Below are positions 4,156-34,707 of a DNA stretch of 36,521 nt, piece after piece; the first letter of the stretch is position 1, and each line of letters starts with the position of its first letter. Below the pieces are notes generated by a model that worked only from the letters and a program-made list of their open reading frames with translations, made no database searches and was not told the origin of the DNA. The stretch spans positions 1 through 36,521 of the forward strand of contig CANJJI010000030.1 in assembly GCA_947474545.1 (NCBI GenBank), in the 5' to 3' direction. The DNA is from Beijerinckiaceae bacterium. Lineage in GTDB: Bacteria; Pseudomonadota; Alphaproteobacteria; Rhizobiales; Beijerinckiaceae. The translations under genes were made by a program, and so were the position numbers.

Positions 4156-4165
4156 CATGAGACTG

Positions 4166-5158
4166 ATGCGAAATGCCTGTATCTATCTGATAGCGGCATT
4201 TTCCCTTGCGCCCTCTATCGCAGCGGCGCAGGAAGCCTATCCGCCAATCTCGATCATCGTCGGTTTTTCTCCAGGCGGCGGCTACGACACCTATGCGCGC
4301 GTACTCGCCCGCCATTATGGCCGTAACCTACCGGGCAATCCGCGTATTGTCGTACAAAACATGCCCGGTGCATCCAGCCTCACTGCCGTGCGTTATCTCG
4401 ACAATGCTGGCAAAAAAGACGGCAGTGTGATTGTGGCTTTCAATCCCGGACTGATCAATCAGTCGTTACTCGAATACGACAAGGTGAAAGTCCGCTTTCC
4501 CGATTATGCCTGGATTGGCAGCATTACCAAAGACTACCGCGTCTGCTATGGCTGGAATGCGGGCGGCGTGAGAACATGGGCTGATCTGCTCAAGCGTGAG
4601 CGGTTCAATCTTGGAACCACCGCGCCTGGCGCTTCTGCCTATATCAATCACGCCATCATGAAAAATCTCTTTGGCGTGAAAGTCCATCACGTCACCGGCT
4701 ATCCCGGCAGCGCTGAAGAACGGCTCGCCATCGAACGAGGTGAACTTGATGGCGGCTGCGGCGCATGGAGCAGCAATCCGCCGCAATGGATCAAGGAAAA
4801 GAAAATTTCTGCTCTGGTAGCGTTCACAAAGCCGCCCATACCCAATCTTGAAGGCGACGTACCGTTCGTTGTTGATCTCGCCCAAACAGCCGACGACAAG
4901 ACTTTGCTCAACGTGCTGATCTCCCCCGATGACCTTGGCCGTCCCTTCATCGCATCGCGTGAAATCCCGGCTGATCGCCTCGCCGTGTTGCGCAAGGGTT
5001 TCGATGCGACGATGCTCGATGCGGAATTTCTCGCTGAAACACAGAAGCTTGATCTGACCGTCAGTCCCATCTCCGGCGTAGATGCAGAGAAAATGATTGG
5101 CGCAATCTATCGTGTCCCTGAGCATATCATCGCCCGTGCAAGGGATATCGTGAAGTAA
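4166..5158 (+). CDS. TctC/Bug-family periplasmic binding protein
   Basis: A 330-residue secreted protein: Sec signal peptide ending near SIAAAQ, then the TctC/Bug fold with VGFSPGGGYDTYARVLARH near the N-terminus of the mature protein. This family binds carboxylates (citrate, aspartate, phthalates and others) for tripartite tricarboxylate transporters. No TctA or TctB gene lies beside it; the only pair in the window is at 16728-18747 on the other strand, with seven TctC genes of its own. Its sequence differs clearly from those seven (no GSGAD signature, no IEPxG tail), so it is not a recent copy of them. Context with TauD-like, cupin and amidohydrolase genes suggests that it captures their substrate. 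Confidence 0.85.
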   Translation: MRNACIYLIAAFSLAPSIAAAQEAYPPISIIVGFSPGGGYDTYARVLARHYGRNLPGNPRIVVQNMPGASSLTAVRYLDNAGKKDGSVIVAFNPGLINQSLLEYDKVKVRFPDYAWIGSITKDYRVCYGWNAGGVRTWADLLKRERFNLGTTAPGASAYINHAIMKNLFGVKVHHVTGYPGSAEERLAIERGELDGGCGAWSSNPPQWIKEKKISALVAFTKPPIPNLEGDVPFVVDLAQTADDKTLLNVLISPDDLGRPFIASREIPADRLAVLRKGFDATMLDAEFLAETQKLDLTVSPISGVDAEKMIGAIYRVPEHIIARARDIVK

Positions 5159-9229: not shown

Positions 9230-9257
9230 CTTCCGCGGCGGAGAATTGCCGCGGAAG
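9230..9257. terminator. Strong hairpin between convergent usp and the last TctC gene
   Basis: CTTCCGCGGC (9230-9239) and GCCGCGGAAG (9248-9257) pair perfectly over 10 bp with an eight-base loop. It sits between two convergent stop codons (9212 and 9276) and may serve both transcripts. T-rich sequence after it is weak in both directions, so termination may be partial or Rho-assisted. Confidence 0.6.
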
Positions 9258-9275: not shown

Positions 9276-10253
9276 TTAGCCGCGAGGCTGTATCTTCGCG
9301 ATCCGGACATATTCGCCCCAGTTCTTGATATCCTGAAGCAGAAACGCCTGTCCTTCATCCGGTGTGGTGATCCAGGGATCGCCACCAAACTGGTTGAGGA
9401 ATTTGATTGTGTCTTCGGTGGTCAGCATTTGTTTAAAGAGATCGTTGATCTTCTGAACAACTGGCTTTGGCGTGGCGATCGGTACAAAGGCAGCGAACCA
9501 GCCATTGAGATCCATGCCCGGCACTCCGGATTCGGCCATCGTCGGGATTTCAGGCAGAAACTTCATCCGTTGTCCAGTCGCAATGCCGAGAATTCGGATT
9601 GAGCCCTGTTTCGCAGCCGCCGTCGAAAATTGTGGATCATGCATGCCGTAGTCGACAGAACCGCTCTGTAAATCGTTGATGGAATCCTGCGCCAGTTTGT
9701 AGGCGACTTCGACCGACTTAACGCCTGTGATCGCCTTATACATTTCGCCCATCACGGTGCCTGAGGTGGCGGCAACCGCGTAGGTCGCCTTGTCGCCCTT
9801 TTCCTTCAGATAGGCGGTCAATTCCTGCACTGTTTTGAATTTTGAATCCTTGTGAACCACCATCATGAAGCCCTGACGATTGATGGTGGCGGCGACCTGA
9901 AATTCCTTGCCTGCGTCCAGAGTCACATTCTTAAAAATATGCATGTTGGCTGACATCGACGAGCCAGTGTGGAGATAAATTGTATGTCCATCGGGCTTGG
10001 CGTGGGTCGTGTAAGTCATCGCGATCATGCCGTTAGCGCCGGGCTTGTTTTCGACGATGACATTGCGTTTGACGATGGGCCGCATCTTGTCGGCGAAATA
10101 ACGCACGACAACGTCCGAGCCGCTGCCTGCAGCGAAGGCGCAAATCAGGCGTATGTCCTGAGAGGGATATTCCTGCGCGCCAGCGCCGTTGATGAAAGGA
10201 AGAGCCGCGCCCAGCGCCAGCGCGATACGCAGGCCTGCTATTTTCTTGGTCAA
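9276..10253 (-). CDS. tctC: TctC binding protein, array member C7
   Basis: About 325 residues. The start is taken as the TTG at 10253, placed six bases after AGGAGC and leading directly into a Sec signal peptide (TKKIAGLRIALALGAALP...AGAQ); the longer frame from 10310 would overlap the previous gene and lacks a signal. The mature protein begins EYPSQDIRLICAFAAGSGSD, the most divergent version of the array signature (Ala for Pro, Ser for Ala), and ends AKIQPRG where the others have IEP. It is the last gene of the array, 40 bases after C6, and should be a periplasmic carboxylate receptor for the TctBA transporter or a related one. The ligand is unknown. Confidence 0.88.
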   Translation of the reverse strand: MTKKIAGLRIALALGAALPFINGAGAQEYPSQDIRLICAFAAGSGSDVVVRYFADKMRPIVKRNVIVENKPGANGMIAMTYTTHAKPDGHTIYLHTGSSMSANMHIFKNVTLDAGKEFQVAATINRQGFMMVVHKDSKFKTVQELTAYLKEKGDKATYAVAATSGTVMGEMYKAITGVKSVEVAYKLAQDSINDLQSGSVDYGMHDPQFSTAAAKQGSIRILGIATGQRMKFLPEIPTMAESGVPGMDLNGWFAAFVPIATPKPVVQKINDLFKQMLTTEDTIKFLNQFGGDPWITTPDEGQAFLLQDIKNWGEYVRIAKIQPRG

Positions 10254-10293
10254 GTGATGCTCCTGTTGTTGAAGAGTGGTGCGCCAGCGCGCC

Positions 10294-11274
10294 TCAGCCC
10301 TTGGGTTCAATTTTCGCCACCTTGATCAGACGGCCCCATTCGTCAAAGGATTCGAGGAAGCGCTTTTGCGCTTCAGGTGCTGACAAGCGCATGGGTTCAC
10401 CGCCAGATTTCAGAATGAATTCCTGCGAAGCTGGCGTCGCCACCACATCAAGGAATATCTGGTTGATCTTTTCGACCACCGCGGGCGGCGTGCCTGTGGG
10501 CGTCATCACGCCAAAGAAGCCGGGAACATCCAGCCCCGTAAGACCCAATTCATGCAACGTCGGCATATCCGGGTGGGCTGACAGGCGCTCTTTCGACCCG
10601 GAGGCGAGAATTCGCATGTTTCCAGCACGTTGTTGCGCATGAGAAAAAACCCCATCCAGAAAGCCATAATCGACCGCGCCGCTTTTAAAATCGTTCACTG
10701 AATCCGGCCCGGTGCGATAGGGAATTTCCACGGCCTTCAATTGCAGCATTTCCTTGAACAAAGCGCCCATCAATTGTCCCGGCGGGGCGGTTGTCGCATA
10801 GCTCACCTTATCGCCCTTTTCCTTCGCGTAGGCGATCAGATCTTTAACATCCTTCCAGGGCCGGTCTGCAGCAACTGTCAGATAGAATGTGAATTTAAGC
10901 AGCGTCGCCGCTGTGATCATTTCCTTGCTTGGATCAATCGGCTTATCCTTGAACATGAAATAATTCGCCGCCAGCGAAGTGGGCGAATGCATGAACAAAG
11001 TATAGCCATCCGGCTTTGCTTTCGCAGAATAGGTGGTTGCAATCAGACCACTGGCCCCCGGCCTGTTATCGACAATGATGGGCTGCTTCATAAAGGGCCG
11101 GGCCTGTTCAGCAAAGAAACGTACCCAAATGTCTGCGCCGCTGCCGGGCGGAAAGGCGCAGACAATTTTCACTTCGCGTGAAGGATAGACGTCCGCTTGC
11201 GCCCAAACTGCCCCTGAATATGCCACGCTGGCGAACCATGCGCCAACGCCAGCAATCAGTGCTTTCTTCAACAT
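10294..11274 (-). CDS. tctC: TctC binding protein, array member C6
   Basis: A 326-residue periplasmic binding protein. The ATG at 11274 follows AGGGAGAG and opens a Sec-type signal peptide (MLKKALIAGVGAWFASVAYS...WAQ); upstream codons in the same frame overlap C5. The mature part starts VYPSREVKIVCAFPPGSGAD, with Pro where most copies have Ala, and ends AKIEPKG. It carries the array motifs KPDGYT and GDKVSY, and the pocket-lining segment VEIPYRTGPDSVNDF which is close to that of C5 (VEVPYRTGPDSVNDL). The resemblance suggests that C5 and C6 derive from one duplication. It lies 22 bases after C5. Confidence 0.9.
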   Translation of the reverse strand: MLKKALIAGVGAWFASVAYSGAVWAQADVYPSREVKIVCAFPPGSGADIWVRFFAEQARPFMKQPIIVDNRPGASGLIATTYSAKAKPDGYTLFMHSPTSLAANYFMFKDKPIDPSKEMITAATLLKFTFYLTVAADRPWKDVKDLIAYAKEKGDKVSYATTAPPGQLMGALFKEMLQLKAVEIPYRTGPDSVNDFKSGAVDYGFLDGVFSHAQQRAGNMRILASGSKERLSAHPDMPTLHELGLTGLDVPGFFGVMTPTGTPPAVVEKINQIFLDVVATPASQEFILKSGGEPMRLSAPEAQKRFLESFDEWGRLIKVAKIEPKG

Positions 11275-11296
11275 TTCTCTCTCCCTGAACTCGTTA

Positions 11297-12295
11297 TCAG
11301 CCGCGCGGTTCGATCTTTGCGATCTCAATATATTTGCGCCAGTTCTCGATCTCTTCGAGGAAATAGCGTTGGGCTTCGGCTGGCGTAATGATGAAGGAAT
11401 CGGTGCCTGCCTTTACCAGAAACTCTTTCGTGGCAGGCGCGCGCGCCATCGCATAAAAAGCATCGCGCAATTTGTTCTTGATTGGCTCGGGTACGCCGAC
11501 GGGCGCCATCAGCCCCCACCAGCCGATGATATTGATGTCGCCAGCGCCCTGCTCCTTCATGGTGGGTACATCGGGCATGGATTGCATCCGCTCGCGCGCG
11601 GCGATAGCGAGAAGCTTTATTTTTCCGGCCCGTACCAGACCAAGCGCGAATGTCGGATCGTACATGGCATAGTCGAGGTTTCCACTCAGCAGATCATTCA
11701 CAGAATCCGGTCCGGTACGATAAGGAACTTCAACGGCCTTGATGCCCATATTCACATTCATCAAAGCGCCCGCGACCTGCCCCGTTGGCGCGGTGGTGAT
11801 ATAGCTGGCCTTGTCACCTTTTTCGCGCATGGCGGCAACGAGTTCCTGCAGAGTGTTGTACTTGCTGTTCGCGGGCACCGCGACGACGAACGCCAGTTTG
11901 CTCACAGTCGCCAGCACTTCGATCGTCTTGCCCGCATCGACGCCGGGGTCTTTATAAAGATGCATGTTCGCAGCAAGGCCACTGACACCGTGAATGTAAA
12001 GTGTGTAGCCATCGGGCTTTGCACGCGCGACATAATTGGTAGCAAGATTTCCGCCAGCGCCGGTCTTGTTGTCGACAATGATCGGCTTGTTGAAATGGGG
12101 CTTCATGCCTTCTGCATAATAACGTACCAGAACATCGGCCCCGCTACCGGCGGGAAAGGCGCAGACGATACGTATTTCCCGTGAGGGATAATCATCGGCT
12201 TGTGCATGTACGTAAGGCGCAAAAACAGGCGTTGCTGCCGCGCCCGCTAACAGGCCCATCGCATGCCTGCGCGACACGTATGTTGCATCGTTCAT
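11297..12295 (-). CDS. tctC: TctC binding protein, array member C5 (Tat-like signal)
   Basis: A 332-residue TctC protein. AGGAGG precedes the ATG. The leader begins MNDATYVSRRHAMGLLAGAA, with a twin arginine followed by a modestly hydrophobic stretch and an AQA-type cleavage site, so export through Tat is possible. The mature part opens DYPSREIRIVCAFPAGSGAD and ends AKIEPRG. It shares YRTGPDSVND with C6. It lies 33 bases after C4 and is probably cotranscribed with it. Ligand unknown; the family binds carboxylates in the periplasm. Confidence 0.9.
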   Translation of the reverse strand: MNDATYVSRRHAMGLLAGAAATPVFAPYVHAQADDYPSREIRIVCAFPAGSGADVLVRYYAEGMKPHFNKPIIVDNKTGAGGNLATNYVARAKPDGYTLYIHGVSGLAANMHLYKDPGVDAGKTIEVLATVSKLAFVVAVPANSKYNTLQELVAAMREKGDKASYITTAPTGQVAGALMNVNMGIKAVEVPYRTGPDSVNDLLSGNLDYAMYDPTFALGLVRAGKIKLLAIAARERMQSMPDVPTMKEQGAGDINIIGWWGLMAPVGVPEPIKNKLRDAFYAMARAPATKEFLVKAGTDSFIITPAEAQRYFLEEIENWRKYIEIAKIEPRG

Positions 12296-12328
12296 GGCGT
12301 CCTCCTTCTATAACCGGTGTAATTGAGT

Positions 12329-13318
12329 TCAGCCTTTTGGCTCTATATTTGCGATCTTCACATAGCGGGCCCAGTTCTCAATATCGTCGAGAAAGCGCTT
12401 CTGCGCGACATCAGCCGGAATCACCAGGGGATCGCCTCCAAATTTTGCCAGGAAATCCCGCGTCTCAGGCCGCTCGGCCATCATACGAAAAGCTTCGCCG
12501 AGCTTTTTCTTTATGGGCTCTGAAACGCCTTTGGGCGCGACAAGTCCCCACCAACCCACGAGATCGACACCGGGGACACCACCCTCGATCATCGTCGGAA
12601 TGTCCGGCTGCGATTTCATCCGCTCCCCTGAGGTCATCGCGAGGACGCGAACGCCTCCGCCGCGTTGCTGTGCGAGCGCGAAAATCGGATCGTACATGGC
12701 AAAATCAATCGCGCCGCTGGCAAGATCGTTCACCGAATCCGCAGCAGTCCGGTAAGGCACTTCGACAGCGCCAAGGTTGAGCACGTGTTTCATCATCGCG
12801 CCGCCGACCTGGCCTGTCGGGGCGGTCGCGCCATAACTGGCCTTGTCGCCTTTGGTCTTCAGATGAGCAATGAGTTCCGGCAATGTCTTCCATGGCGAAC
12901 TGGCGGCGACGGAAACCGTGAAGCGCAGAGTCGCCACGGTGCCTAATACGTCAAAGGACTTACCGGCATCATGGCCGGGATCCTTGAAGAGATGCATGTT
13001 AGCTGCAAGCGCCGATGGCGTATGGATATAGAGCGTATAGCCATCCGGTTTGGCGCGGGCGACATAATTGGTGGCCAGATTTCCGCTCGCGCCGACACGA
13101 TTTTCAACGATAATGTTTCTGTTGAAGGCGGGCTTCATGCCTTCGGCAAAAAACCGGGCGAAGACGTCCGCGCCGCTGCCCGCGGGAAAGGCGCAAATCA
13201 CACGAATTTCACGCGAGGGGTAACTATCCTCCTGTGCCGCAACATGGCGTGGCAGCATTGCAAGCGAAGACGTTGCAAACAGACTCTGAATGACACGTCT
13301 GCGTGAAAATTTCGCCAT
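12329..13318 (-). CDS. tctC: TctC binding protein, array member C4 (Tat-like signal)
   Basis: A 329-residue TctC protein preceded by AGGGAG. The leader MAKFSRRRVIQSLFATSSLA has SRRRVIQSLF, a good match to the twin-arginine consensus. The mature part opens SYPSREIRVICAFPAGSGAD and ends ANIEPKG. The pocket region is VEVPYRTAADSVNDLASGAID. Its upstream spacer to C3 is the longest in the array (156 bases) and holds a terminator-like hairpin, so C4 may head its own transcript, with C5-C7 following. Confidence 0.9.
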   Translation of the reverse strand: MAKFSRRRVIQSLFATSSLAMLPRHVAAQEDSYPSREIRVICAFPAGSGADVFARFFAEGMKPAFNRNIIVENRVGASGNLATNYVARAKPDGYTLYIHTPSALAANMHLFKDPGHDAGKSFDVLGTVATLRFTVSVAASSPWKTLPELIAHLKTKGDKASYGATAPTGQVGGAMMKHVLNLGAVEVPYRTAADSVNDLASGAIDFAMYDPIFALAQQRGGGVRVLAMTSGERMKSQPDIPTMIEGGVPGVDLVGWWGLVAPKGVSEPIKKKLGEAFRMMAERPETRDFLAKFGGDPLVIPADVAQKRFLDDIENWARYVKIANIEPKG

Positions 13319-13418
13319 GGATATGCTCCCTGTCAGTCTTGTATTCCCGCACGGTCTGCGCCGAATTGGGGAAATGATCGCACAGGCTCCGGCCTGCGTC
13401 TACACGTCCGATGTTGCG

Positions 13419-13441
13419 AAAAGGCCGCCCGCGCACGGCGG
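13419..13441 (-). terminator. Possible terminator or attenuator between array members C3 and C4
   Basis: On the minus strand CCGCC (13441-13437) pairs with GGCGG (13429-13425) and is followed by CC and TTTT (13422-13419). The stem is short but GC-only, and it stands in the one long spacer of the array. It may end transcripts of C1-C3 or reduce read-through into C4-C7. Confidence 0.35.
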
Positions 13442-13474
13442 ACAGCCCTGTCATTTCAAACAGAATAGTCTTGA

Positions 13475-14461
13475 TCAGCCCTGGGGTTCAATCTTCGCCA
13501 GTTTCACGAAGCCGCCCCAATCCTCAATGTCCTTGATCATGCGTTTCTGACCTTCCTCAGGAGAGATCATAAGTGTATCCGCGCCAAACTTGGCCATGAA
13601 CTGGCGCGTTTCCTCGTTGCCGACGATCTCCTCGAACATATGGCGGATTTTCTCCACAATCGGCTTAGGCGTCGCCATTGGCACCATCGCGGCCCACCAG
13701 CCACCGACATCATAATTGGTGACGCCAAGTTCGTGCATGGAAGGCAGTTCCGGCATGGACTTCATGCGATCCTTCGTCGTCACGGCCAGCATGCGAAGGC
13801 GACCGGAATTTGCGCCCGCAACGGCCGTTACGGGATCATGGAAGGCAAAGTCGATGACGCCGCTCGCCATGTCGTTGAGAGTTTCTGAGCCCGTCTTGTA
13901 TTGCACTTCCACGGACTGCAGATCGAAATGCTTCTTGAACCACGCGCCTGCGACGCGCGCAGTCGGATTGTTGCTGGCATAGCTAGCCTTGTCGCCTTTG
14001 GCTTTCAGCGCGGCGACGAGTTCATTCAGCGTTTTTGCGGGATAGTTGGCGCCTGTGCAGAGCATGAATGGCTGCACGTTGATGCCAGCGACAATTTGAA
14101 TTTCCCTGGCGATATCGACGGGCGGATTTTTGAACAAATGCATGTTCGCAGCCAGCGAATTGGGCGCGTGAATATAGATCGTATGTCCGTCCGGCTTGGC
14201 TCTGGCCGAATAAGTTGTGGCGATGTTGGCGTTTGCCCCGACCCGATTTTCCACCACGATCGTGCGCTTCATGAGGGGGCGCAGTTTCTCCGCGAAATAG
14301 CGCACGTACACGTCTGCGCCGCTTCCCGCTGGAAAAGCGCAGACGAATTTCACGTCCTGACTGGGATAGTCGCTTGCTGAATCCTGCGCACTGGCAAGGC
14401 CACCGGCCGCAAGGCTTGCGGCGCCCGTGAGCAATGTTCTGCGTGTGATTTGATGATGCAA
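13475..14461 (-). CDS. tctC: TctC binding protein, array member C3 (Tat-like signal)
   Basis: A 328-residue TctC protein. The start is a TTG at 14461 with GGAG eight bases before it; the leader HHQITRRTLLTGAASLAAGG contains TRRTLLTG, a twin-arginine motif. The mature part opens DYPSQDVKFVCAFPAGSGAD and ends AKIEPQG. The pocket region VEVQYKTGSETLNDMASG is like that of C2 (VEVQYKTGADTLNDLASG), which suggests that C2 and C3 are sister copies. Seventy-eight bases separate it from C2. Confidence 0.9.
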   Translation of the reverse strand: MHHQITRRTLLTGAASLAAGGLASAQDSASDYPSQDVKFVCAFPAGSGADVYVRYFAEKLRPLMKRTIVVENRVGANANIATTYSARAKPDGHTIYIHAPNSLAANMHLFKNPPVDIAREIQIVAGINVQPFMLCTGANYPAKTLNELVAALKAKGDKASYASNNPTARVAGAWFKKHFDLQSVEVQYKTGSETLNDMASGVIDFAFHDPVTAVAGANSGRLRMLAVTTKDRMKSMPELPSMHELGVTNYDVGGWWAAMVPMATPKPIVEKIRHMFEEIVGNEETRQFMAKFGADTLMISPEEGQKRMIKDIEDWGGFVKLAKIEPQG

Positions 14462-14539
14462 GTCTGTTCTCCGCTACCTATGGATTTCGCCGCCTGTTTG
14501 CCACAGGCAGCTGGTCCAGTCCACAGCAGCACTACGGAG

Positions 14540-15529
14540 TCAGCCTTGCGGTTCGATATTGGCAAGCTTGATATATTCGCCCCACGCCCTGTAATCGTCG
14601 AGAAACTTCTTCTGCCCCTGTTCGGGCGAAAGCATGAGCTGGTCCGCGCCAAACTTGGCGAAAAAGGCGCGGCTTTCCTCAGAGGCTGTCACTTCATTGA
14701 AGAGCTTGTTGATCTTGTCGATGACAGGCTTAGGCGTTGCCATAGGCACCATGGCGCCCCACCAGCTGGGCAGATCAATGTCGCGCGCGCCTGATTCGTG
14801 AAGCGTGGGTATATCCGGGGCAGCTTTCATGCGCTCTTTCACTGCGACTGCCAGTATGCGGACCCGTCCAGCATTTTGCTGTGCGATGGCGGTAACGGGA
14901 TCATGCAAGGCAAAATCCAGCGCGCCGCTCGCAAGATCATTCAACGTATCTGCGCCAGTTTTGTATTGCACTTCGAGTGAATTGAGATTCATGGCTTTCT
15001 TGTACCATGCGCCCGCGACGCGCCCGGTGGGATTGTTGGTCGCGTATGAGCCTTTGTCCCCCTTCTCGCGCAATGCGGCGGTAAGATCGGCGACAGTCTT
15101 CCATGGCTTGTCAGCAGATATTGTGACCATGAATGTCTGCAGCAACAGGGTGGCGGCAACTGTCAGTTCCTTGGTGGAATCGATGCCGGGATTCTTGAAC
15201 AAATGCATGTTAGCGGCAAGGCCGCTCGGCGCGTTGAGATAAATCGTATAGCCGTCCGGCCTGGATTTGGCGGCATAGGAGGTGGCGATATTGCCGTTGG
15301 CCCCAACGCGATTTTCGACAACTACGGCCCGGCCGAGAATGGGACGCAGCTTTTCGGCATAGTAACGAACGTATGTATCCGCGCCACTACCGGCAGGGAA
15401 TCCGCAGACAAATTTGATTTCGCGCGAAGGATAGTTTGGATCAGCTTCCTGAGCGCTTGCAACCGCACCGTAGAGCGCGGTTGCCACGAGTATCAAGCCG
15501 AAACGGTTTAGCTTATTGATTATTTTCAT
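14540..15529 (-). CDS. tctC: TctC binding protein, array member C2
   Basis: A 329-residue TctC protein with a Sec-type signal (MKIINKLNRFGLILVATAL...ASAQ) and AGGA before the ATG. The mature part opens NYPSREIKFVCGFPAGSGAD (Gly where the other copies have Ala) and ends ANIEPQG, identical to the last residues of C1. The segment RVGANGNIATSYAAKSRPDG and the pocket VEVQYKTGADTLNDL link it to C1 and C3. It is 38 bases after C1. Confidence 0.9.
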   Translation of the reverse strand: MKIINKLNRFGLILVATALYGAVASAQEADPNYPSREIKFVCGFPAGSGADTYVRYYAEKLRPILGRAVVVENRVGANGNIATSYAAKSRPDGYTIYLNAPSGLAANMHLFKNPGIDSTKELTVAATLLLQTFMVTISADKPWKTVADLTAALREKGDKGSYATNNPTGRVAGAWYKKAMNLNSLEVQYKTGADTLNDLASGALDFALHDPVTAIAQQNAGRVRILAVAVKERMKAAPDIPTLHESGARDIDLPSWWGAMVPMATPKPVIDKINKLFNEVTASEESRAFFAKFGADQLMLSPEQGQKKFLDDYRAWGEYIKLANIEPQG

Positions 15530-15567
15530 CGTTGATCCTGTTAACTTCCGGCCCGGTATTTGTTCGT

Positions 15568-16566
15568 TCAGCCTTGCGGCTCGATATTGGCGAGCTTGAT
15601 ATAATCACCCCAGGCTTTCACATCCTTCTCGAACATCGCCTTGGCTTCCGCCGGTGAGAGCGACATCGTGTCCGCACCGAACTTGGCCATGAAGGCACGG
15701 GTTTCTTCACCGTCGATAACCGGTTTCCACATCTGGTTCAGTTTATCGACGATCGCTTGCGGTGTGCCAGCGGGCACCATGGCGGCCCACCAACCAGGCA
15801 CGTCGAGATCCTTGACGCCTAGTTCATGCAGCGACGGCAGTTCTGGCAGCGCCTTCATACGCTCCTTCGTCGTCACGCCGAGCATGCGCAACGAGCCGTT
15901 AGTGGCATTTGCAACTGCATGAACTGGATCGTGCATGACATAGTCGATCGCGCCGCTCTGCATATCGTTCATGGTGTCGCCACCGGTCTTGTACATGATC
16001 TCGACCGCTTTCAGGCCATAGACTTTGTTGAACCAGGCCGCTGCGACCTTGCTTGTCGGCGCAGTTGTACCATAGCTCGCCTTGTCGCCTTTCTTTTTCA
16101 GCAATTCCACCAGCTCCGGGACCGTCTTAACTGGCGAACTTGCGTGCACAGTCAGCATGAAAGGCTGGCGATTGATCGTCGCGGCGATGACGATTTCCTT
16201 GGCCGCATCGACAGGCGGATTCTTGAACAGATGCATGTTCGCGGCCAGAGCGCTCGGCGCATGCACATAGATTGTATAGCCATCAGGCTTGGCGCGCGCG
16301 ACATAGGTCGTTGCAATATTGCCGTTGGCGCCGGCGCGGTTCTCGACGACGATTGCGCGCTTGAATGCGGGACGCATGCGTTCAGCGAAATAGCGCACGT
16401 AAACGTCTGCGCCGCTGCCTGCCGGGAAGGCGCAGACGAATTTCACTTCGCGCGAAGGATAGTCCGCCGCCGATTCCTGCGCCAATGCCGACGGCAAAGA
16501 CAGGGTTCCCGCGCCCAGAACGGCTGGCGCTCCAATGATAAGGTCACGCCGGGTTATCTTCGTCAT
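15568..16566 (-). CDS. tctC: TctC binding protein, array member C1 (Tat-like signal)
   Basis: A 332-residue TctC protein, first of the array. GGGAGG precedes the ATG. The leader MTKITRRDLIIGAPAVLGAG has TRRDLIIG, a clear twin-arginine motif. The mature part opens DYPSREVKFVCAFPAGSGAD and ends ANIEPQG. The pocket region is VEIMYKTGGDTMNDMQSGAID. It lies 161 bases downstream of tctA, beyond an intrinsic terminator, so it needs either its own promoter or read-through. As the copy next to the membrane genes it is the best candidate for the original receptor of this transporter. Confidence 0.92.
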   Translation of the reverse strand: MTKITRRDLIIGAPAVLGAGTLSLPSALAQESAADYPSREVKFVCAFPAGSGADVYVRYFAERMRPAFKRAIVVENRAGANGNIATTYVARAKPDGYTIYVHAPSALAANMHLFKNPPVDAAKEIVIAATINRQPFMLTVHASSPVKTVPELVELLKKKGDKASYGTTAPTSKVAAAWFNKVYGLKAVEIMYKTGGDTMNDMQSGAIDYVMHDPVHAVANATNGSLRMLGVTTKERMKALPELPSLHELGVKDLDVPGWWAAMVPAGTPQAIVDKLNQMWKPVIDGEETRAFMAKFGADTMSLSPAEAKAMFEKDVKAWGDYIKLANIEPQG

Positions 16567-16670
16567 GTCATCCTCCCAAATCAGGCACGCCGGTGCATCC
16601 GGCTGTGTTCACCAAGCATATTGTCACACGCCTCTTGCGGCGTCCACGGCATCGATAAATTCGATCAAAA

Positions 16671-16707
16671 CAAAAAGCCGCGTGTGGGAATCGTCCCAAA
16701 CGCGGCT
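16671..16707 (-). terminator. Intrinsic terminator between tctA and the TctC array
   Basis: On the minus strand a 14-bp stem with one mismatch (arms 16707-16694 and 16689-16676, loop of four) is followed directly by TTTTTGTTTTG. This is a textbook Rho-independent terminator for the tctB-tctA transcript. It stands 21 bases after the tctA stop and 110 bases before C1. Nothing comparable is found on the plus strand here. Confidence 0.85.
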
Positions 16708-16727
16708 CTTGTGGCGGTGATATCGGT

Positions 16728-18239
16728 TTATTCCTTAAACGCCTCTTCGCGCGTTGCGCGGAAGGATGGCAACACGATCAAGGCCACCACGCAGGCGGTC
16801 AGCGCCAGCAAGGTTGCGGAAATCGGGCGCTGCAGGAAGATCATGGGGTCGCCGCGCGACAGCACCATGGATCGGCGCAGGTTCTCCTCCATCAATGGCC
16901 CGAGGATGAAGCCCAGCACCATCGGCGCAGGCTCGCAGCCAAAGCGCATGAGAATGTAACCGAAGGCCGCGAAGATCACCATCAGCAGCAATTGCGAAGG
17001 TTCGCTGTTGGAGCTGTACACGCCGATGCAGCAAAACATGATGATCGCCGGATAAAGCAGGCTGTAAGGCACTTGCAGCAACTTAACCCACATGCCGATC
17101 AACGGCAGGTTGATGATGACAAGCATCAGATTGCCGATCCACATCGAGGCAACAAGGCCCCAGAACAATTCTGGATTGCTGGTCATCACTGCCGAGCCGG
17201 GCTGTATGCCCTGGATCATCATCGCGCCCATCATGATCGCCATGATCGGGTTGGAGGGAAGACCGAGAGTCAACAGGGGAATGAACGAGGTCTGCGCCGC
17301 AGAATTGTTCGCGGCTTCCGGTCCGGCGACGCCTTGAATTGCGCCCTTGCCGAACGCGAAAGTCGGGTTGCGTACGACCTTCTTTTCCACTGTATAGGCG
17401 GCGAAGGAGGCCAGCACAGCGCCGCCGCCGGGCAGAATTCCGAGCAATGAGCCGAGCGCTGTGCCGCGCAGGGCAGCCGGAATCGCCTCTTTGAACTCAG
17501 CCCTTGTTGGCCACAGATCCTTCATTTTTGTGGGGATGGGCTCACGCTCAATGGTATCGCCTTCGAGGTTGCGGATGATTTCCACAAGACCGAACATGCC
17601 GATGACCAGCGGCAGGAAGTCGATGCCGTCCCACAACGTCGAAATGCCGAAGGTATAACGTGTCGCGCCGCTGTTCACGTCCGTCCCAACAAGGCCGAAC
17701 AACAGACCGATGAGAATGACCGTGATCGCCTTGAGCACGGAGCCTTGCGCCAGAATGACCGCTGTCACCAGACCCAGCACCATCAGCGAAAAATAGTCTG
17801 GCGAGTTGAACTTTTGGGCAAAGCTCGCCAGCGGCGGCCCGAAGCCAGCGATAAAAACTGTGCCGACGCAACCTGCAAAAAAACTGCCCAAAGCCGCCAC
17901 GGCCAAAGCCGCGCCCGCCCGGCCGCGCCGCGCCATCTGATAACCGTCAATACATGTCACGACGGAGGAGGATTCGCCGGGCATGTTGACAAGGATCGAT
18001 GTGGTTGAACCGCCATATTGCGCGCCATAGTAGATGCCGGCCATCATGATCAGCGAAGTCAGCGGATCGAGACCGAACGTAATCGGGAGCAACATGGCGA
18101 GAGTCGGGATTGGGCCGATGCCAGGCAACACGCCGATCAGCGTACCTACAAGGCAGCCGATCATCGCGAAGCCGACGTTTTGCAAAGTGCCTGCGGCAAC
18201 AAAACCTGTCAGCAGGTTTTGAAACATATTCATATCCAT
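16728..18239 (-). CDS. tctA: Tripartite tricarboxylate transporter large membrane subunit TctA
   Basis: A 503-residue polytopic membrane protein with about eleven to twelve hydrophobic segments. Family hallmarks are the N-terminal VLPGIGPIPTLAMLLPITFG and, in the second half, LGILPGGGAVLASFAAYTVEKK, the repeated glycine-rich motifs of the TctA (DUF112) family. It is the channel-forming subunit that imports a carboxylate with sodium or protons. The start at 18239 follows GGGAG and lies one base beyond the tctB stop, so the two are translationally coupled; a longer frame from 18344 runs inside tctB and is not family sequence. A terminator follows at 16676. Confidence 0.96.
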   Translation of the reverse strand: MDMNMFQNLLTGFVAAGTLQNVGFAMIGCLVGTLIGVLPGIGPIPTLAMLLPITFGLDPLTSLIMMAGIYYGAQYGGSTTSILVNMPGESSSVVTCIDGYQMARRGRAGAALAVAALGSFFAGCVGTVFIAGFGPPLASFAQKFNSPDYFSLMVLGLVTAVILAQGSVLKAITVILIGLLFGLVGTDVNSGATRYTFGISTLWDGIDFLPLVIGMFGLVEIIRNLEGDTIEREPIPTKMKDLWPTRAEFKEAIPAALRGTALGSLLGILPGGGAVLASFAAYTVEKKVVRNPTFAFGKGAIQGVAGPEAANNSAAQTSFIPLLTLGLPSNPIMAIMMGAMMIQGIQPGSAVMTSNPELFWGLVASMWIGNLMLVIINLPLIGMWVKLLQVPYSLLYPAIIMFCCIGVYSSNSEPSQLLLMVIFAAFGYILMRFGCEPAPMVLGFILGPLMEENLRRSMVLSRGDPMIFLQRPISATLLALTACVVALIVLPSFRATREEAFKE

Positions 18240-18240
18240 G

Positions 18241-18747
18241 TCAGGCTCCCTTCGCCGACGAAAACAGCGACCAGAGTTTCGTGAAGGCAGCCGACAGGTA
18301 GTCACCGCTCCATGTAGGCATGGCCTGGCCGAGCAGCACGACAAAGATCAGCACCGATGCGAATGCCATGCAGACGGCCAGCAAAAGCATTTTCTTCTGG
18401 TTCGTGTCGCTACGTCCCTGGGTCGCAATGGCGACCAGCAGAACGAGCGCAGGCTCAAGCCGGATATGTTCGATGAGGTAGCCAAACGCCAGAACGCCAG
18501 CGAACACGCAAAGGATTGGGCGCAATGGAATTCGCTCAATCGGTGGACCGTCCAGCGTAAAACACTTGAACAGGCAAATTCCACCCATGCCCATAATGAT
18601 CCAGCTGAGCCATGTCGGGAAATAACCAGGGCCCATGCTGCGGGCTGAGCCGTAGGTCAGGTCTTTACCGAAATAAATTCCGACCAGACCAATAAAAATG
18701 AACAGCAGTCCCGCCCCCAGGTCCTGCGGACTCTTCACGCGCAACAT
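18241..18747 (-). CDS. tctB: Tripartite tricarboxylate transporter small membrane subunit TctB
   Basis: A 168-residue protein with four hydrophobic helices and the TctB hallmark ARSMGPGYFP at residues about 33-42. TctB is the small membrane partner of TctA. The start at 18747 follows a very strong GGAGGGGGAG; the frame extends upstream to 18792 without family sequence. It heads the transporter operon and is coupled to tctA. Upstream lies a 181-base gap with a terminator-like hairpin that separates it from the UbiD-like gene. Confidence 0.92.
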   Translation of the reverse strand: MLRVKSPQDLGAGLLFIFIGLVGIYFGKDLTYGSARSMGPGYFPTWLSWIIMGMGGICLFKCFTLDGPPIERIPLRPILCVFAGVLAFGYLIEHIRLEPALVLLVAIATQGRSDTNQKKMLLLAVCMAFASVLIFVVLLGQAMPTWSGDYLSAAFTKLWSLFSSAKGA

Positions 18748-18928: not shown

Positions 18929-20470
18929 TTATGCAGAAGCGATAAAATATCTGCCCAACTCGTCGCGCTGAATGCCTTTCATGGAGAACATTTCCCGTAC
19001 GATTTCGCGCCCGTCCCGGCTGCCAGTGGCCGCCATCAGGTCTTCAAAACGCTTTGGCCCATCTTCCAGCGCGGCTTTCAGGCTCGGGAATTTCTTGCCG
19101 GGATAGGTGGGCGGGACAGGAATTTGCAGCTCCCATTTGTTCGCATGCTGCAACGGCCAGGTGAGGTCGAACCCCGCTTTGGTGCCAGTATGGGCGCCGT
19201 GCAGCGATGGGTCGAGTGGCGAGAGCCTTACGCCGGTCGCCTGGATCAGGTCCTTGTCCGCCTGGAAACGAGTGCCGAAAGCCCATTCGAATTGCTGGTC
19301 GTTGAAGATGTCGATATCCGGATCGACAGCGAATGCGTGTTTGGCCGCCGTGCTGCCCAGCACTGTGTGTAATGCACTGCGGGCCTCGCCGGGATAGCGC
19401 TGACGCAGCGAGAACCGCACGCTCATCGAGCCGCCAGCAGACACGGGCGCATAGACTGCAACGGGTTCGCGAACGACGCTTTTCAGCGCTTCCCATGCAT
19501 TCAATTCGGTGCGGATAGCCTCCAGATTGGACGTGTCAGTCAGGTCCATGCGGCTGCCGGAAATCGTCGCAGTCTGGAACAATGCGTCCTTGCGGTGTGT
19601 GATGGCCGTCAGGCGGAACACGGGGTTCATCTTCACGCCGCCATAATAGCCGAGATATTCGCCGTAAGGGCCTTCTTTCTCCACGTAACCTGCGGGATCG
19701 AGATAACCTTCAAGCACGATTTCCGCGTCGGCCGGCACCATGACAGGCTGCGTCACGCATTTGACGACGCCCATTGGCGCCGCGCGCAATGAGGAGATGA
19801 GCCCGAGTTCATCGCCGGGCTGTTTCATTGTTGCGGCAACATGATCGATGGGATGCATGCCGATGACATAGGCCACAGGCACTTTTTCGCCGCGCGCCTG
19901 TGCTGCCATATAGATGGCGCGCAAGTCGCTGGGCGCATTGAGATCGACGCCGGTTTCCTTCGGCCCGCGCAGCATCAGGCGGCGCAGACCGCAATTGGAA
20001 AGGCCGGTCGCCGGATCGATACTGAAATCGACCGTAGCCGAAATATAGGGCGCGCCATCAAAAGCGTGCTGCAGATGCGCGGGAAGTTTGAGCACATCGA
20101 TATCATCGCCGGTGACGACAACCTGCTGCACTGGCGCTTCTTCACGCGTGAGTTCGACCAGAACCGGCGGCAGCGACAGGCGGCGCAACAATTCCTCGAC
20201 AATCCCGGCCTGTGAAACGCCAAGAGCGCGGGCGAGGCGTTCGCGGCCACCGACTACGTTGCCGACGACTTCGACCCCTTCCGGGCCGGCTTTCTTGAAC
20301 CAGACAGCCTTGGGATTGCCCTGCATGATGGCGGCCATATCGGCCAGATCGACCTTGTCCTCGCGCACGTCGAGTTGATCCGATCCTTTCAAACCTTCGA
20401 CAAAATTACGCAGGCGAAAGCGGTCGATATCGATGCTGTTTTTCAGGTTTTGCGAAGTCTGGTCATCCAT
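18929..20470 (-). CDS. UbiD-family prenylated-FMN-dependent decarboxylase
   Basis: A 513-residue UbiD-family protein. The family block EGPYGEYLGYYGG (from residue 266) shows Glu266 and Glu271, with the spacing of the catalytic glutamates Glu277 and Glu282 of Fdc1, and an arginine pair in SNCGLRRLML (163/164) suits the third catalytic residue. These enzymes reversibly decarboxylate aromatic, heteroaromatic or unsaturated acids using prenyl-FMN. No UbiX-type prenyltransferase is present in the window. AGGAGG precedes the ATG, 34 bases after the hydratase-like gene, so they form one operon. Its position beside a carboxylate transporter points to catabolism of an imported acid rather than ubiquinone synthesis. 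2,5-Furandicarboxylate, pyrrole carboxylate and hydroxybenzoate are all possible substrates. Confidence 0.9.
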   Translation of the reverse strand: MDDQTSQNLKNSIDIDRFRLRNFVEGLKGSDQLDVREDKVDLADMAAIMQGNPKAVWFKKAGPEGVEVVGNVVGGRERLARALGVSQAGIVEELLRRLSLPPVLVELTREEAPVQQVVVTGDDIDVLKLPAHLQHAFDGAPYISATVDFSIDPATGLSNCGLRRLMLRGPKETGVDLNAPSDLRAIYMAAQARGEKVPVAYVIGMHPIDHVAATMKQPGDELGLISSLRAAPMGVVKCVTQPVMVPADAEIVLEGYLDPAGYVEKEGPYGEYLGYYGGVKMNPVFRLTAITHRKDALFQTATISGSRMDLTDTSNLEAIRTELNAWEALKSVVREPVAVYAPVSAGGSMSVRFSLRQRYPGEARSALHTVLGSTAAKHAFAVDPDIDIFNDQQFEWAFGTRFQADKDLIQATGVRLSPLDPSLHGAHTGTKAGFDLTWPLQHANKWELQIPVPPTYPGKKFPSLKAALEDGPKRFEDLMAATGSRDGREIVREMFSMKGIQRDELGRYFIASA

Positions 20471-20504: not shown

Positions 20505-21233
20505 TCAGCGGAATTTTTCGCCGGTTACGATACCATTGATCAAGCCGGCGTGCACCTTGCGCGCCGAGAAAGACATTTCCAGCGCGGTATTGAGATAAGT
20601 CTTGATTCCGCGCACGACGGGCGGCGTATTCTTGGAGAGCTGGGCGAGCACGCGATCAACTTCGGCATCAAGTTTTGCTTCTGGCACAACGATTGCGATG
20701 ATGCCGATTTCCTTGGCTTCGGCTGACTTGATGACATCGCGCGTCAGAACCATGCGCGCCAGGGTCGTGCGGTTCACGCGTTCGGCCAGCGCTGTCATGA
20801 CCAGCGTCGGCGCGATATCGTGGTTCATTTCCGGCACGGAAAACTCCGCAGTGTCTGCAGCAATTGCAACATCGGCAAGCGCAGCGAGAGCGCAGCCGAC
20901 GCCAGCCGCCTTGCCGCGCACCTTGGCGATGACAGGCACAGGCACATTGCGCAGCACTTCATAAAAATCGAGCACAGGATCGGCGATCAGAGCCTTCAAT
21001 TCCAGCGCTGTCTTGCGGCTGCCCGGCGGGGGCATGGTGGCGCGGCGGCCCGCGCAGAAATCAGCGCCTTCCCCGGTGAACAGCACGGCGCGGGTTTCCG
21101 GATCGAGATCAGCAAGCGCCTTTGTGACGTCGAGCGCCATTTCCGCCGACAGCGCATTGCCGGCAGCCGGTGCGTTCAGGGAGATTTCAAGAATATTTCC
21201 GTCGCGATTTGTGACCTTGACTTCCGACGCCAT
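20505..21233 (-). CDS. Enoyl-CoA hydratase/isomerase family protein
   Basis: A 242-residue crotonase-fold protein. Oxyanion-hole regions are visible as GADFCAGR (about residues 55-62) and KAAGVGCALAALADVAIAAD (about 107-126). The acidic residue in PEMNHDIAP may take the place of a catalytic glutamate (usually PExxxG), so the reaction could be hydration, isomerisation or hydrolysis. It is somewhat short at the C-terminus for the family (about 255-260). GGAGG precedes the ATG. It lies between the molybdenum hydroxylase subunit and the UbiD-like gene, which suggests a CoA-bound or analogous intermediate, but no CoA ligase is visible. Confidence 0.85.
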   Translation of the reverse strand: MASEVKVTNRDGNILEISLNAPAAGNALSAEMALDVTKALADLDPETRAVLFTGEGADFCAGRRATMPPPGSRKTALELKALIADPVLDFYEVLRNVPVPVIAKVRGKAAGVGCALAALADVAIAADTAEFSVPEMNHDIAPTLVMTALAERVNRTTLARMVLTRDVIKSAEAKEIGIIAIVVPEAKLDAEVDRVLAQLSKNTPPVVRGIKTYLNTALEMSFSARKVHAGLINGIVTGEKFR

Positions 21234-21312: not shown

Positions 21313-23667
21313 TCATCCCTTCTGCATCGCCGCCCAAATTTTCTGCGATGTCACGGGCATGTCGATATGGCGCACGCCATAATCCTGCAAGGCATCGCAG
21401 ATGGCGTTGACCATACATCCCAACGCGGGCGTTGTGCCGCCTTCGCCGCCGGGACGGAAGCCGAGGGGGTGATTAACTGAAGGGACCTCGCTCAACTCCG
21501 TTGTAAACATCGGGAAATTATCGGCGCGCGGCATCGCGTAATCCATGAACGAGGCTGTGATCATTTGTCCGTCTTTGGGATCGTAATAGCATTGCTCCAT
21601 CAGCGCCTGTCCAAGGCCCGTGACGATGCCACCCTGTGTCTGCCCATGCAGAATCATGGGATTGACGGCGCGGCCCACATCATCGACCGCGACATATTTG
21701 ATGATTTCCAGCACGCCGGTGTCAGGATCAATCTCGACCTCACAGGTATGGGAGCCATAGGGATAGGCGAGCCCAATGGTTGTCTTGTCGCAAAAAGCGC
21801 CGAGCGGACCGCGCAATTCCTTCGGCACTTTGCTTGTCTGTGCGGCAGCGGCCACATCGAACAGGCCAAGCGAACGATCCGTTCCCTTGATGGAAAAGCG
21901 TCCAGTCTTGAATTCGATGTCGGTTGCATCGGCTTCCAGCATCGCGCCTGCGATTTTCTTGCCTTTCTCGATGATCTCGAGTGCGGATTCATAAATCACA
22001 ACGCTGCCAAACCGCATGGACCGGCCTGAGTGCGAGCCACCGCCCGCCTTCACAAATGCCGTGTCGCCATAGCGAATCTGCACCTGCTCAAACGGCACGC
22101 CCAGAAAATCGCAGATCAATTGCGAGAAGCTGGTCTGGTGTCCCTGCCCGGTCGCCTGCGTGCCGATGATGACATCCACCTTGCCATCAGGCAATATGGT
22201 CACATCAGCCCGTTCACGCGGGAAGCCGCTGGTGGTTTCGACATAATTGGCGACCGCGATCCCGCGAAGTTTGCCACGCTTCTTTGCCTCGCGTTTACGC
22301 GCGGCAAAGCCTTTCCAGTCGCCGAGGCCGAGCGCTGTATCCATCGTCGCGCCATAATCGCCGTTGTCGTATTTGATGCCAATGGGATTGGTGTAGGGCT
22401 GTTGCTTTGACTTGATCAGGTTCTTGCGGCGCAGCGCGACCCTGTCGAATCCGCATTCGCGCGCGGCAATGTCGATCATGCGTTCGATGACATATATGAC
22501 CTCAGGCCGTCCGGCGCTGCGATAAGGGATTGTCGATGGCGTGTTACTGAGCACAGCCTTGCCGCGCACATAGGCGCAGGGCACGTCATAGACGCTGCTC
22601 ATCAATTGCACGCCCTTGTTGAGAGCGACGAAAGATGTCGTGTGCGCGCCGATATTTGACAGATTGGTGCTTCGGATAGCGAGAAATTTGCCGTTAGCGT
22701 CCAGCGCCAGATCGGTTTCCACATAGAGGTCGCGGCCCTGATAATCTGTCAGGAAAGCTTCCGTACGCTCGCAGACATGTTTTACCGGACGGTTCAATTT
22801 TCTCGCCGCCCAGCAGATGATTACATATTCGGGATTAGTCGCATTGCGGGTGCCGAAATTGCCACCCACGTCCTGCGGCGCAGCGACACGCACCTTGTCG
22901 AGCTCCATGCCCAGAGCGCCCGCGATTTCCTGCCGGAAGATGATAACGCCCATGCCGAGCGAGGCATGCAACGTGAGCGAGCTGGTCTTCGCATCATATT
23001 CGGCGAGCGCGGCGCGCGGCTCCATGTGGACGCCGGTAACGCGATTGATCCATGTCGAAAAGCTGACAACATGTTTGGCCTTCGCGAAAGCCTTTTCGGT
23101 CGCGGCCTTGTCGCCCACTTCGGAATCGAGCGAGATATTGCCGGGGATTGCGTCCCACAATTGCGGAGCGCCGGGTTTTACTGCGTCAAAAGAACGCGTC
23201 ACAACTGGCAAAGTCTCCCATTCCAGCACGACCTTTTCGGCTGCATCGCGCGCCGCATAAATGGTTTCGCCAAGTGCGACCGCGACGACTTCGCCAGTTG
23301 TGCGCACGATGTCGGTGACGAAGGCAGGATGAGGAACGACCAGACGTTCCGAACCATCGATGTTCTTCAGCGGCACGTCCGTCCCGGTGAACGAATTGCC
23401 AGTGGAATGAGGCACGGCCTTCAACCCGTCCGCCAGCGCATCGGCTCCAGTGAGAACCGCGACGACGCCGGGAACAGCGCGCGCAGCCGTGACGTCGATT
23501 TTCTTCAGGCGCGCATGGGCATGGGTGGCGTGGACAAAGACCGCATGAAGCGGAGATTTGGCTGGCAGATCGTCCGCATAGCAGCCATTTCCCATGATCA
23601 GGCGCAGATCTTCCTTGCGTCTGACCGGTTCGCCGATGCCGGTATGTGCCGGTTTGTGATCGTCCAT
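21313..23667 (-). CDS. Xanthine dehydrogenase/CoxL-family molybdenum-binding subunit
   Basis: A 784-residue large subunit of the molybdenum hydroxylase family. Landmarks are GIGEPVRRKEDLRLIMG at the start (typical of CoxL-like proteins), AAPQDVGGNFG (263-273), YRSAGR (382-387, where form I CO dehydrogenases have AYXCSFR and form II AYRGAGR), GQGHQTSFSQ (507-516), and the catalytic Glu742 in GGEGGTTPA. It is therefore not a form I CO dehydrogenase; it should hydroxylate an aromatic, heteroaromatic or aldehyde-type substrate. The FAD and 2Fe-2S subunits that normally flank it are absent on both sides. It heads the set with hydratase and UbiD-like genes, 79 bases before the next. Confidence 0.92.
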   Translation of the reverse strand: MDDHKPAHTGIGEPVRRKEDLRLIMGNGCYADDLPAKSPLHAVFVHATHAHARLKKIDVTAARAVPGVVAVLTGADALADGLKAVPHSTGNSFTGTDVPLKNIDGSERLVVPHPAFVTDIVRTTGEVVAVALGETIYAARDAAEKVVLEWETLPVVTRSFDAVKPGAPQLWDAIPGNISLDSEVGDKAATEKAFAKAKHVVSFSTWINRVTGVHMEPRAALAEYDAKTSSLTLHASLGMGVIIFRQEIAGALGMELDKVRVAAPQDVGGNFGTRNATNPEYVIICWAARKLNRPVKHVCERTEAFLTDYQGRDLYVETDLALDANGKFLAIRSTNLSNIGAHTTSFVALNKGVQLMSSVYDVPCAYVRGKAVLSNTPSTIPYRSAGRPEVIYVIERMIDIAARECGFDRVALRRKNLIKSKQQPYTNPIGIKYDNGDYGATMDTALGLGDWKGFAARKREAKKRGKLRGIAVANYVETTSGFPRERADVTILPDGKVDVIIGTQATGQGHQTSFSQLICDFLGVPFEQVQIRYGDTAFVKAGGGSHSGRSMRFGSVVIYESALEIIEKGKKIAGAMLEADATDIEFKTGRFSIKGTDRSLGLFDVAAAAQTSKVPKELRGPLGAFCDKTTIGLAYPYGSHTCEVEIDPDTGVLEIIKYVAVDDVGRAVNPMILHGQTQGGIVTGLGQALMEQCYYDPKDGQMITASFMDYAMPRADNFPMFTTELSEVPSVNHPLGFRPGGEGGTTPALGCMVNAICDALQDYGVRHIDMPVTSQKIWAAMQKG

Positions 23668-28837: not shown

Positions 28838-28911
28838 TGCCTCCTATTTCTGGCATGGACAGCACGCCATCGCCCGCCTACAAATTGCCAGAGAATACCG
28901 GGGAGGCAAAC

Positions 28912-34282: not shown

Positions 34283-34707
34283 GGATTAGCGATCTCGAAC
34301 GGGTTGACGAGGGATAGGCCGAGGTCGTCGAAGTCGCGGACGTTACGGGTGGCAAGCGTCATGGCATTTGCAAGGGCTATTGAGGCGATGAGAGCATCCA
34401 TCGAACGGATACGCCGCCCGGCTCCTTGCCTTATGGCTCTTACTTTCGCAAATTCATGAGCAGCGGCTCTGTCGAACGAAAGGACCCGCCCAGAAAAGAA
34501 ATCCTCTTCCAATTGGTCATAACTGGCTCCTAAGGCCAACTTGCGCCGTCCATCAGGCAATAGGGCAACACCGAAGCGTAATTCCGCAAGCACGGGCGCG
34601 CAGAGAAATAACGAACCTTCGATTTGCCCGTCTATCCACTTTCGAACAGGCTCATTGGCCAATGGGTTGATCGCAGTAGAAATAACATTCGTATCGAGCA
34701 GGATCAT
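34279..34707 (-). CDS. vapC: PIN-domain toxin (VapC/FitB type)
   Basis: A 142-residue PIN ribonuclease toxin. The acidic metal site is seen as LLDTNV (Asp5), Glu42 in AELRFG, Asp104 in MDALIAS and the TRNVRDF segment (Asp125). Those residues make it look catalytically intact. FitB/VapC toxins cut RNA and are restrained by the partner encoded upstream. Its ATG overlaps the antitoxin stop and its stop overlaps the fmt start, both as ATGA. It is thus fused into the housekeeping operon. Confidence 0.93.

Follow-up and report, generated by a model that had tools for sequence, protein, structure and literature searches.

Tripartite tricarboxylate transporters (TTT) usually combine one exported receptor, TctC, with one pair of membrane proteins, TctB and TctA, a ratio that is not strictly defining, and the question addressed here is what to make of a locus that departs from it, with seven TctC genes standing behind one TctB-TctA pair. 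The locus lies in a stretch of 36,521 nucleotides (the window), which is contig CANJJI010000030.1 of a 4.8 Mb genome in 286 contigs of a Beijerinckiaceae bacterium (GCA_947474545.1, hereafter G000). As judged from sequence comparisons, it is probably a TTT locus in which one TctBA type is served by seven diverged receptors, each with ligands of its own.

The nine-gene locus and its counterparts

Nine genes stand head to tail on the minus strand, in the 5' to 3' order TctB (18241..18747; PF07331, 51.7 bits), TctA (16728..18239; PF01970, 514 bits, the match covering residues 59-477 of the long frame) and the TctC receptors T1 (15568..16566), T2 (14540..15529), T3 (13475..14461), T4 (12329..13318), T5 (11297..12295), T6 (10294..11274) and T7 (9276..10253). 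TctB is the small membrane subunit and TctA the large one, that is, the channel, while the receptors match PF03401 with 162, 141, 139, 147, 181, 171 and 160 bits, respectively, the whole range of 139-181 bits comparing with a Pfam cut-off of 27. T3 and T7 begin with TTG and T6 with ATG, the starts of TctB, TctA, T6 and T7 having been chosen by eye from the ribosome site and the alignment. The start of TctA directly adjoins the stop of TctB, and the gaps that follow measure 161 (TctA-T1), 38 (T1-T2), 78 (T2-T3), 156 (T3-T4), 33 (T4-T5), 22 (T5-T6) and 40 (T6-T7) nucleotides, the last two as computed with the chosen starts. The original prediction of one TctB-TctA pair followed by seven consecutive TctC genes is thus borne out by nine intact, Pfam-supported genes, and the locus is not explained by chance.

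Counterparts were sought by scanning the named genome contigs for TctA, the best 80 loci being examined within the fetched stretches. Five or more TctC genes in a row behind TctA were found at two of these 80, L002 in genome G018 with seven and L005 in genome G308 with ten inside the fetched stretch, the tenth being truncated; L001, in genome G033, shows three whole TctC genes up to the contig end. In G018, T1-T7 recur in identical order, each nearest to its own counterpart at 71-80% identity, with the genes for a molybdenum enzyme, an enoyl-CoA hydratase and UbiD upstream and UspB/UspA downstream. G033 has the array in two unjoined pieces, one contig ending within T4 after T1-T3 and another resuming in T4 and running to T7; the second contig carries downstream genes that match those of G018, and the receptors are 91-96% identical to T1-T7. 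The array-linked TctA is 97% identical to that of the window in G033 and 92% in G018. In G308 (contig CANJBX010000014.1, 41908-58963; C14, L178 and L179), TctB, TctA and fourteen TctC genes share one strand, with mutual receptor identities of 42-67% and a TctA of the type found in the window. The suggested search of other genomes for TctBA with at least five adjacent TctC genes in a kept order has therefore returned G018 (whole), G033 (over two contigs) and, with its fourteen genes, G308; the locus is real, conserved, and larger elsewhere.

Within the genus, TctA at 73% identity or more was found in 16 of 51 genomes, with partial matches only in G011 and G045, the region behind TctA being lost at a contig end in the latter. 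Same-strand TctC genes directly behind TctA number seven in G000, G018 and G033, three in G002 and G015, two in G001 and one in G046 and G049; G011, where TctA is cut, has at least two, and none was seen in G034, G028, G043, G016, G039 and G040, of which G028 and G043 offer short contigs. Receptors close to T1 (expectation value up to 1e-95) occur in nine of the 51 genomes (G000, G001, G002, G011, G015, G018, G033, G046 and G049), all nine falling among the 16 with this TctA. When 3-6 candidates per genome were scored, the TctA type was found in 8 of 248 family genomes (expectation value up to 1e-215), all of the same genus, and, at 1e-210, in one of 397 order genomes (G000 itself) and two of 385 class genomes (G000 and one other), being rare beyond the genus in the family, order and class samples.

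No stop codon interrupts the 21 receptor copies of G000, G018 and G033, T4 of G033 consisting of two pieces cut by contig ends. The ratio of nonsynonymous to synonymous substitution rates (dN/dS), obtained by a simple counting method, is 0.028-0.052 for T1-T7 against G033 and 0.07-0.14 against G018, so all seven copies are under purifying selection. Decay of some copies is thus ruled out, with no stop and a low dN/dS for all seven in two relatives, and the pseudogenised copies that the original prediction had advised looking for in close relatives were seen in neither G018 nor G033. As a separate observation in G308, the reading frame is broken by one stop codon, each time TAG, in four of the 36 receptor matches that lie outside the array, and in none of the fourteen within it.

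Divergence, selection and descent of the receptors

The mature T1-T7 align without gaps over 297 residues at 41-66% identity. An export signal is visible by eye in all seven, which agrees with the intact signal peptides claimed for them, although its type is not uniform: twin-arginine translocation (Tat)-like motifs are present in T1, T3, T4 and T5, and the signals of T2, T6 and T7 are Sec-like. The Tat motif also switches between orthologues, again as read by eye, T2 being without it in the window and with it in G018, and T4 the reverse. One uniform signal peptide for the array is ruled out by this mix within the array and between orthologues. AdpC, a solved relative, carries a Tat-signal name in the PDB.

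Where the loop motif P-F-x-A-G-G-x-x-D is described for Bug/TctC proteins (PMC8556258), all seven read F-x-x-G-S-G-x-D, with serine in place of the second glycine, and the residue before the phenylalanine is alanine in six of them and glycine in T2; the match to the family profile is nevertheless good in all seven. The predicted fold of T1, the one receptor of the seven covered by a structure model, is two-lobed, with a predicted local distance difference test score of 91.7, and its best solved match is Bug27 with a template modelling score of 0.91, a value that AdpC also reaches. Compared with BugD, Bug27 and TBP, the seven have a profile that is two residues shorter in the loop of Bug27 Cys136, and an aspartate occupies in all seven the position aligned with Bug27 Thr183, so that the ligand class of T1-T7 may differ from those known. 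Of the 68 sequences in the receptor set, 44 have an IEPQG-like C-terminal tail, versus none of 32 other TctC-like frames of G000, a pattern that was fitted after viewing the tails and compared with frames some of which are weak matches, and from which no claim on docking is drawn.

Variation around the ligand cleft was followed in 36 columns in six loops bordering it, a set of our own choice, mapped from the contacts of TphC and Bug27. Pocket residues are given in PMC8556258 and PMC11452294, and the mapping used these contacts together with an alignment of Bug27, BugD and TBP in which TphC was placed by motif, with no superposition. The 36 columns sit at strand ends of the T1 model. Orthologues differ in them at 0.095 versus 0.235 elsewhere, and paralogues at 0.440 versus 0.502, with p 0.0001 relative to columns matched for paralogue variability, the p values being column permutations uncorrected for the choice of set; no effect appeared when the loop set was shifted to seven other positions. 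Within this set, the cleft loops are kept between orthologues and differ between paralogues, as a receptor panel would need, which lends partial support to the original reading.

Descent was examined in trees of 57, 65 and 68 TctC sequences. Before the first, 27 of 84 rows were removed as overlapping-locus duplicates, long branches or members of other subfamilies, and before the last, the L005 rows were replaced by those of G308 and two long rows were removed. In all three trees, T1-T3 form a clade with 99-100% bootstrap that is found solely in G000, G018 and G033, and a search of the 51 genus genomes with T1 alone as the query returned nothing above 54% identity outside these three. Also in all three trees, T6 pairs with the receptor behind the TctA of G011, and T1-T6 together with kin such as this G011 T6-type receptor group at 99-100%. 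T7 joins array receptors of G001, G002 and G015 at 96-99% across trees (96/88 in the 65-sequence tree), while T4 and T5 group with a G011 orphan at 100% in the 65- and 68-sequence trees. In approximately unbiased (AU) tests, a group of the seven and their orthologues, named before any tree was made, gives p 7e-9 without the G011 T6-type receptor and p 0.109 with it, the latter version having been picked after seeing the tree; T1-T6 without that receptor are likewise rejected (p 0.0005). An exclusive single local clade of seven is therefore ruled out, both by the AU test and by the kin of T4/T5, T6 and T7 in relatives, and of the suggestion that the seven might form one clade of local origin, the part concerning T1-T3 is retained.

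The fourteen receptors of G308 do not form one clade, several of them pairing with members of the L010 array or with orphans of G000. Among these orphans, C1 groups with G308 no. 6, the C78 trio joins G308 no. 3 and L010 no. 2, and a further group unites C16 and C154 with G308 no. 11 and L010 no. 4.

Transcript features and neighbouring genes

Two hairpins were read by hand on the minus strand: one with a T-run, terminator- or attenuator-like, between TctA and T1 (16667..16707, ends approximate), and one after T7 (9230..9257) that is the likely transcript end. Among six stretches folded, the TctA-T1 stretch (z -4.48) and the T7 end (z -3.34) of the window alone folded clearly better than shuffles. 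The T3-T4 stretch of the window folds weakly (z -0.80), and those of G018 gave weak to borderline z values of -1.29 (TctA-T1), -1.97 and -2.02, the last for a different hairpin with a T-run at the T7 end. A hairpin and T-runs stand between TctA and T1 in both the window and G018, in sequences that are unlike each other. A scan for promoter and terminator patterns found no excess over shuffles (7 vs 7.5 and 13 vs 15.6) and missed the TctA-T1 hairpin, which could separate the expression of the receptors from that of the channel, or lower the former relative to the latter.

Upstream of TctB, also on the minus strand, lie the genes for a UbiD-family decarboxylase (18929..20470; PF01977, 180 bits), a conserved neighbour and possible cargo enzyme, an enzyme of the enoyl-CoA hydratase/isomerase family (20505..21233; PF00378, 134 bits; with synteny kept in G018 and G033), and the CoxL-like large subunit of a molybdenum hydroxylase (21313..23667; PF20256 and PF02738; best solved match 8uem, CoxL). 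For the last, no medium or small subunit was seen among the neighbouring frames scanned. Matches to the UbiD of the window stand near TctBA in 8 of the 16 genomes of the genus that carry this TctA (73% identity or more), and these are eight of the nine with T1-close receptors and none of the other seven, within the stretches examined; in the ninth, G011, UbiD is found behind two such receptors on another contig. There, locus L160 (C135) has the two receptors of the same subfamily and then UbiD, with no TctBA match within the 10 kb examined, as if an array had been split. The solved structure nearest to the window UbiD is 6h6v (192 bits), which we take, as a lead only, to be the furandicarboxylate decarboxylase HmfF.

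Three further features were observed in the window. An eighth TctC gene (28900-29889, plus strand) lies beside an alpha/beta hydrolase and a luciferase-like monooxygenase, and fumarase, this TctC, the hydrolase and the monooxygenase are kept together in G018 at 80-88% identity. A receptor-like exported protein, unmatched in Pfam and NCBIfam at 0.001, is encoded at 4157-5158, and several loci have frames 29-38% identical to it close to genes for TctBA or TctC. Finally, a PIN-domain protein (34279-34707), a candidate for the toxin component of a toxin-antitoxin pair, stands between methionyl-tRNA formyltransferase and peptide deformylase.

Channel partners and relation to known systems

Considering that (i) the seven receptors are kept in three genomes, and (ii) the 36 cleft-loop columns carry the signal given above, one of the two explanations offered originally, a single channel with receptors of different ligand range, is favoured here. 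Each receptor would be exported and catch in its cleft its own carboxylate, or a narrow group of carboxylates, and all would dock on the same TctBA type, which would import the cargo using an ion gradient; UbiD and the adjoining enzymes may process part of it. The panel would have grown by local duplication, for T1-T3, atop older T4/T5, T6 and T7 types present in relatives.

Several observations weigh against such a panel. In a set of 18 columns cited in two structure papers, the cleft signal is weaker and fails to reach significance (p 0.05 and 0.15), and receptor types show fixed differences no more often there than elsewhere (0.206 vs 0.220). The number of synonymous substitutions per synonymous site (dS) against G018 is 1.1-2.1, near saturation. 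The transcript may be split by hairpins in the TctA-T1 and T3-T4 gaps; UbiD and TctB lie about 1 kb apart in G018, and no UbiD match was found within the 38 kb examined of G308. Seven of the 16 genus genomes with the TctA type are without a close receptor at the cut-off used, so that the channel type exists without the panel, and TctC genes of 37-43% identity stand on the opposite strand in G034, G043, G016, G039 and G040. In addition, the co-occurrence of TctA and receptors ignores kinship and was scored on at most 42 candidates per genome, and the genomes compared are largely drafts or metagenome-assembled genomes.

The content of the host genome bears on which channels the receptors may feed. 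A family search of G000 yielded at least 150 TctC places, from 284 candidates, versus 7 TctA places, a TctC-expansion pattern as in Rhodoplanes, with TctC far above TctA and arrays of 3-7. Other TctC rows examined hold 3-4 genes in C203, C35, C15 and C49, two and three in C82, and three in C78 and C150, and 0-3 TctC genes lie near the remaining TctA places examined. Seven is thus the largest array seen in G000 among the contigs examined and matches listed, and it is not the sole array. A second TctBA pair (C207:1982-4001, L101) has a TctA 95% and a TctB 81% identical to those of the window, so that the single pair of the original prediction applies to the locus and not to the genome. The 6.7 kb contig of this sister pair shows no TctC; as read by eye, the pair is preceded by an autotransporter-like frame and followed by ABC-type (ATP-binding cassette) genes. 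In G018, the TctA of a sister pair is 94% identical to that of the window, with no match to a window TctC within the 19 kb examined, and the sister TctBA of G033 is interrupted by the contig end. Recent or homogenised copies are ruled out, since dS between the TctA of the window and that of C207 is ~1.3 and codon identity stays uniformly low over the length of the gene; such a dS despite 95% identity indicates an old pair strongly constrained by selection. The sister TctBA may draw on the same receptors as the pair of the window.

More tentatively, and with doubt prevailing, TctBA could be viewed as a hub with an exchangeable cassette of 1, 2, 3, 7 or 14 receptors, the members of which would leave as orphans or return, all feeding the channel type and its sister. 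On that reading, the orphans of G000 that group with array members would be orphans with a known home.

The numbers of G000 also speak for a reading in which the receptors mainly serve other permeases, such as the sister TctBA, other TTT, ABC or tripartite ATP-independent periplasmic (TRAP) transporters, the array being a breeding place of receptors: TctC genes vastly outnumber those of TctA, near-identical TctBA pairs stand without neighbouring TctC in G000 and G018, and some TctC genes are reported to be linked with those of ABC and TRAP systems (PMC5994714). This is unlikely, however, given that the T1-close receptors are confined to genus genomes with the TctA type, in nine cases out of nine, and that such TctC rows behind the TctA type occur in records under several family names. 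Quite unlikely, too, is the other explanation offered originally, namely that a part or the majority of the receptors serve as sensors or as buffers in the periplasm, handing ligand to a kinase or chemoreceptor. The idea has a published precedent in BctDECBA of B. pertussis, as cited in PMC5994714, and relatives with the channel type but without the panel would suit it; on the contrary, a Pfam scan of 30 frames of the window found no kinase, response regulator or chemoreceptor, and the receptors stand directly behind tctBA in the window, G018 and G308. Least probable is a dosage effect, in which duplication boosts the receptor for one cargo and all seven bind the same ligand, because head-to-tail genes, the local duplication of T1-T3 and the unremarkable 18-column set are opposed by mature proteins merely 41-66% identical, by 36 cleft-loop columns that differ between types and are kept between orthologues, and by copies that each hold their place in three genomes.

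The panel of seven on one TctBA type can be set beside known systems. As in the TTT prototype, the citrate system TctCBA of Salmonella, TctA, TctB and exported TctC are encoded together, but the prototype has one receptor (PMC5994714) whereas the window has seven, behind TctBA, and shows no TctDE-like regulator among the frames scanned. Rhodoplanes, like the host of the window, is an alphaproteobacterium with a huge TctC set, 434 genes of which nine belong to standard TctABC operons, and with head-to-tail TctC genes in tandem arrays of up to nine (PMC5994714), so the original statement that such expansions are mostly scattered orphans does not hold in general. The Rhodoplanes nine are at most 50% identical to each other, with one exception, and for five of the nine the nearest protein lies outside the array (PMC5994714). 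The array of the window differs in standing directly behind TctBA and in being kept in two more genomes, no such TctBA placement being stated for the Rhodoplanes nine in the available text of PMC5994714. The fourteen-TctC array of G308 exceeds these nine (PMC5994714); it shares with the window a TctB-TctA pair followed by same-strand TctC genes of the same kind, and differs in their number and in having no UbiD in the stretch examined. Bordetella likewise has many TctC-type Bug receptors, few TctBA and a proposed shared channel, but most of its receptors are without a neighbouring channel, whereas the likely channel of the window is adjacent (PMC5812351, PMC11452294). In Comamonas, TphC, a TctC-type receptor, feeds the TctBA-like TpiBA, its cargo there being an aromatic dicarboxylate, but receptor and channel belong to separate operons and one receptor is described (PMC8556258).

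Neither TctC expansion nor tandem arrays nor the idea of many receptors on one channel is new, all of them being already in print (PMC5994714, PMC5812351). The last is credited to Antoine 2003 and Hosaka 2013 by PMC5812351, a 2018 review which states that evidence for one channel serving several receptors was not yet available, and both the shared-channel and the sensor explanations appear in PMC5994714. Among the top-ranked matches of a literature search, no TctBA with at least five adjacent TctC genes was found. Thermal shift assays and single tctC deletions are described for Variovorax (PMC8102459), and in river water TTT genes correlate with lignin oxidation genes (PMC7597016).

Many TctC/Bug receptors are without a known channel, and loci with seven or fourteen receptors name partners to be tested jointly. 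The kinship of the arrays also ties some orphan TctC by descent to array members, and the idea raised in 2003 becomes directly testable with these loci.

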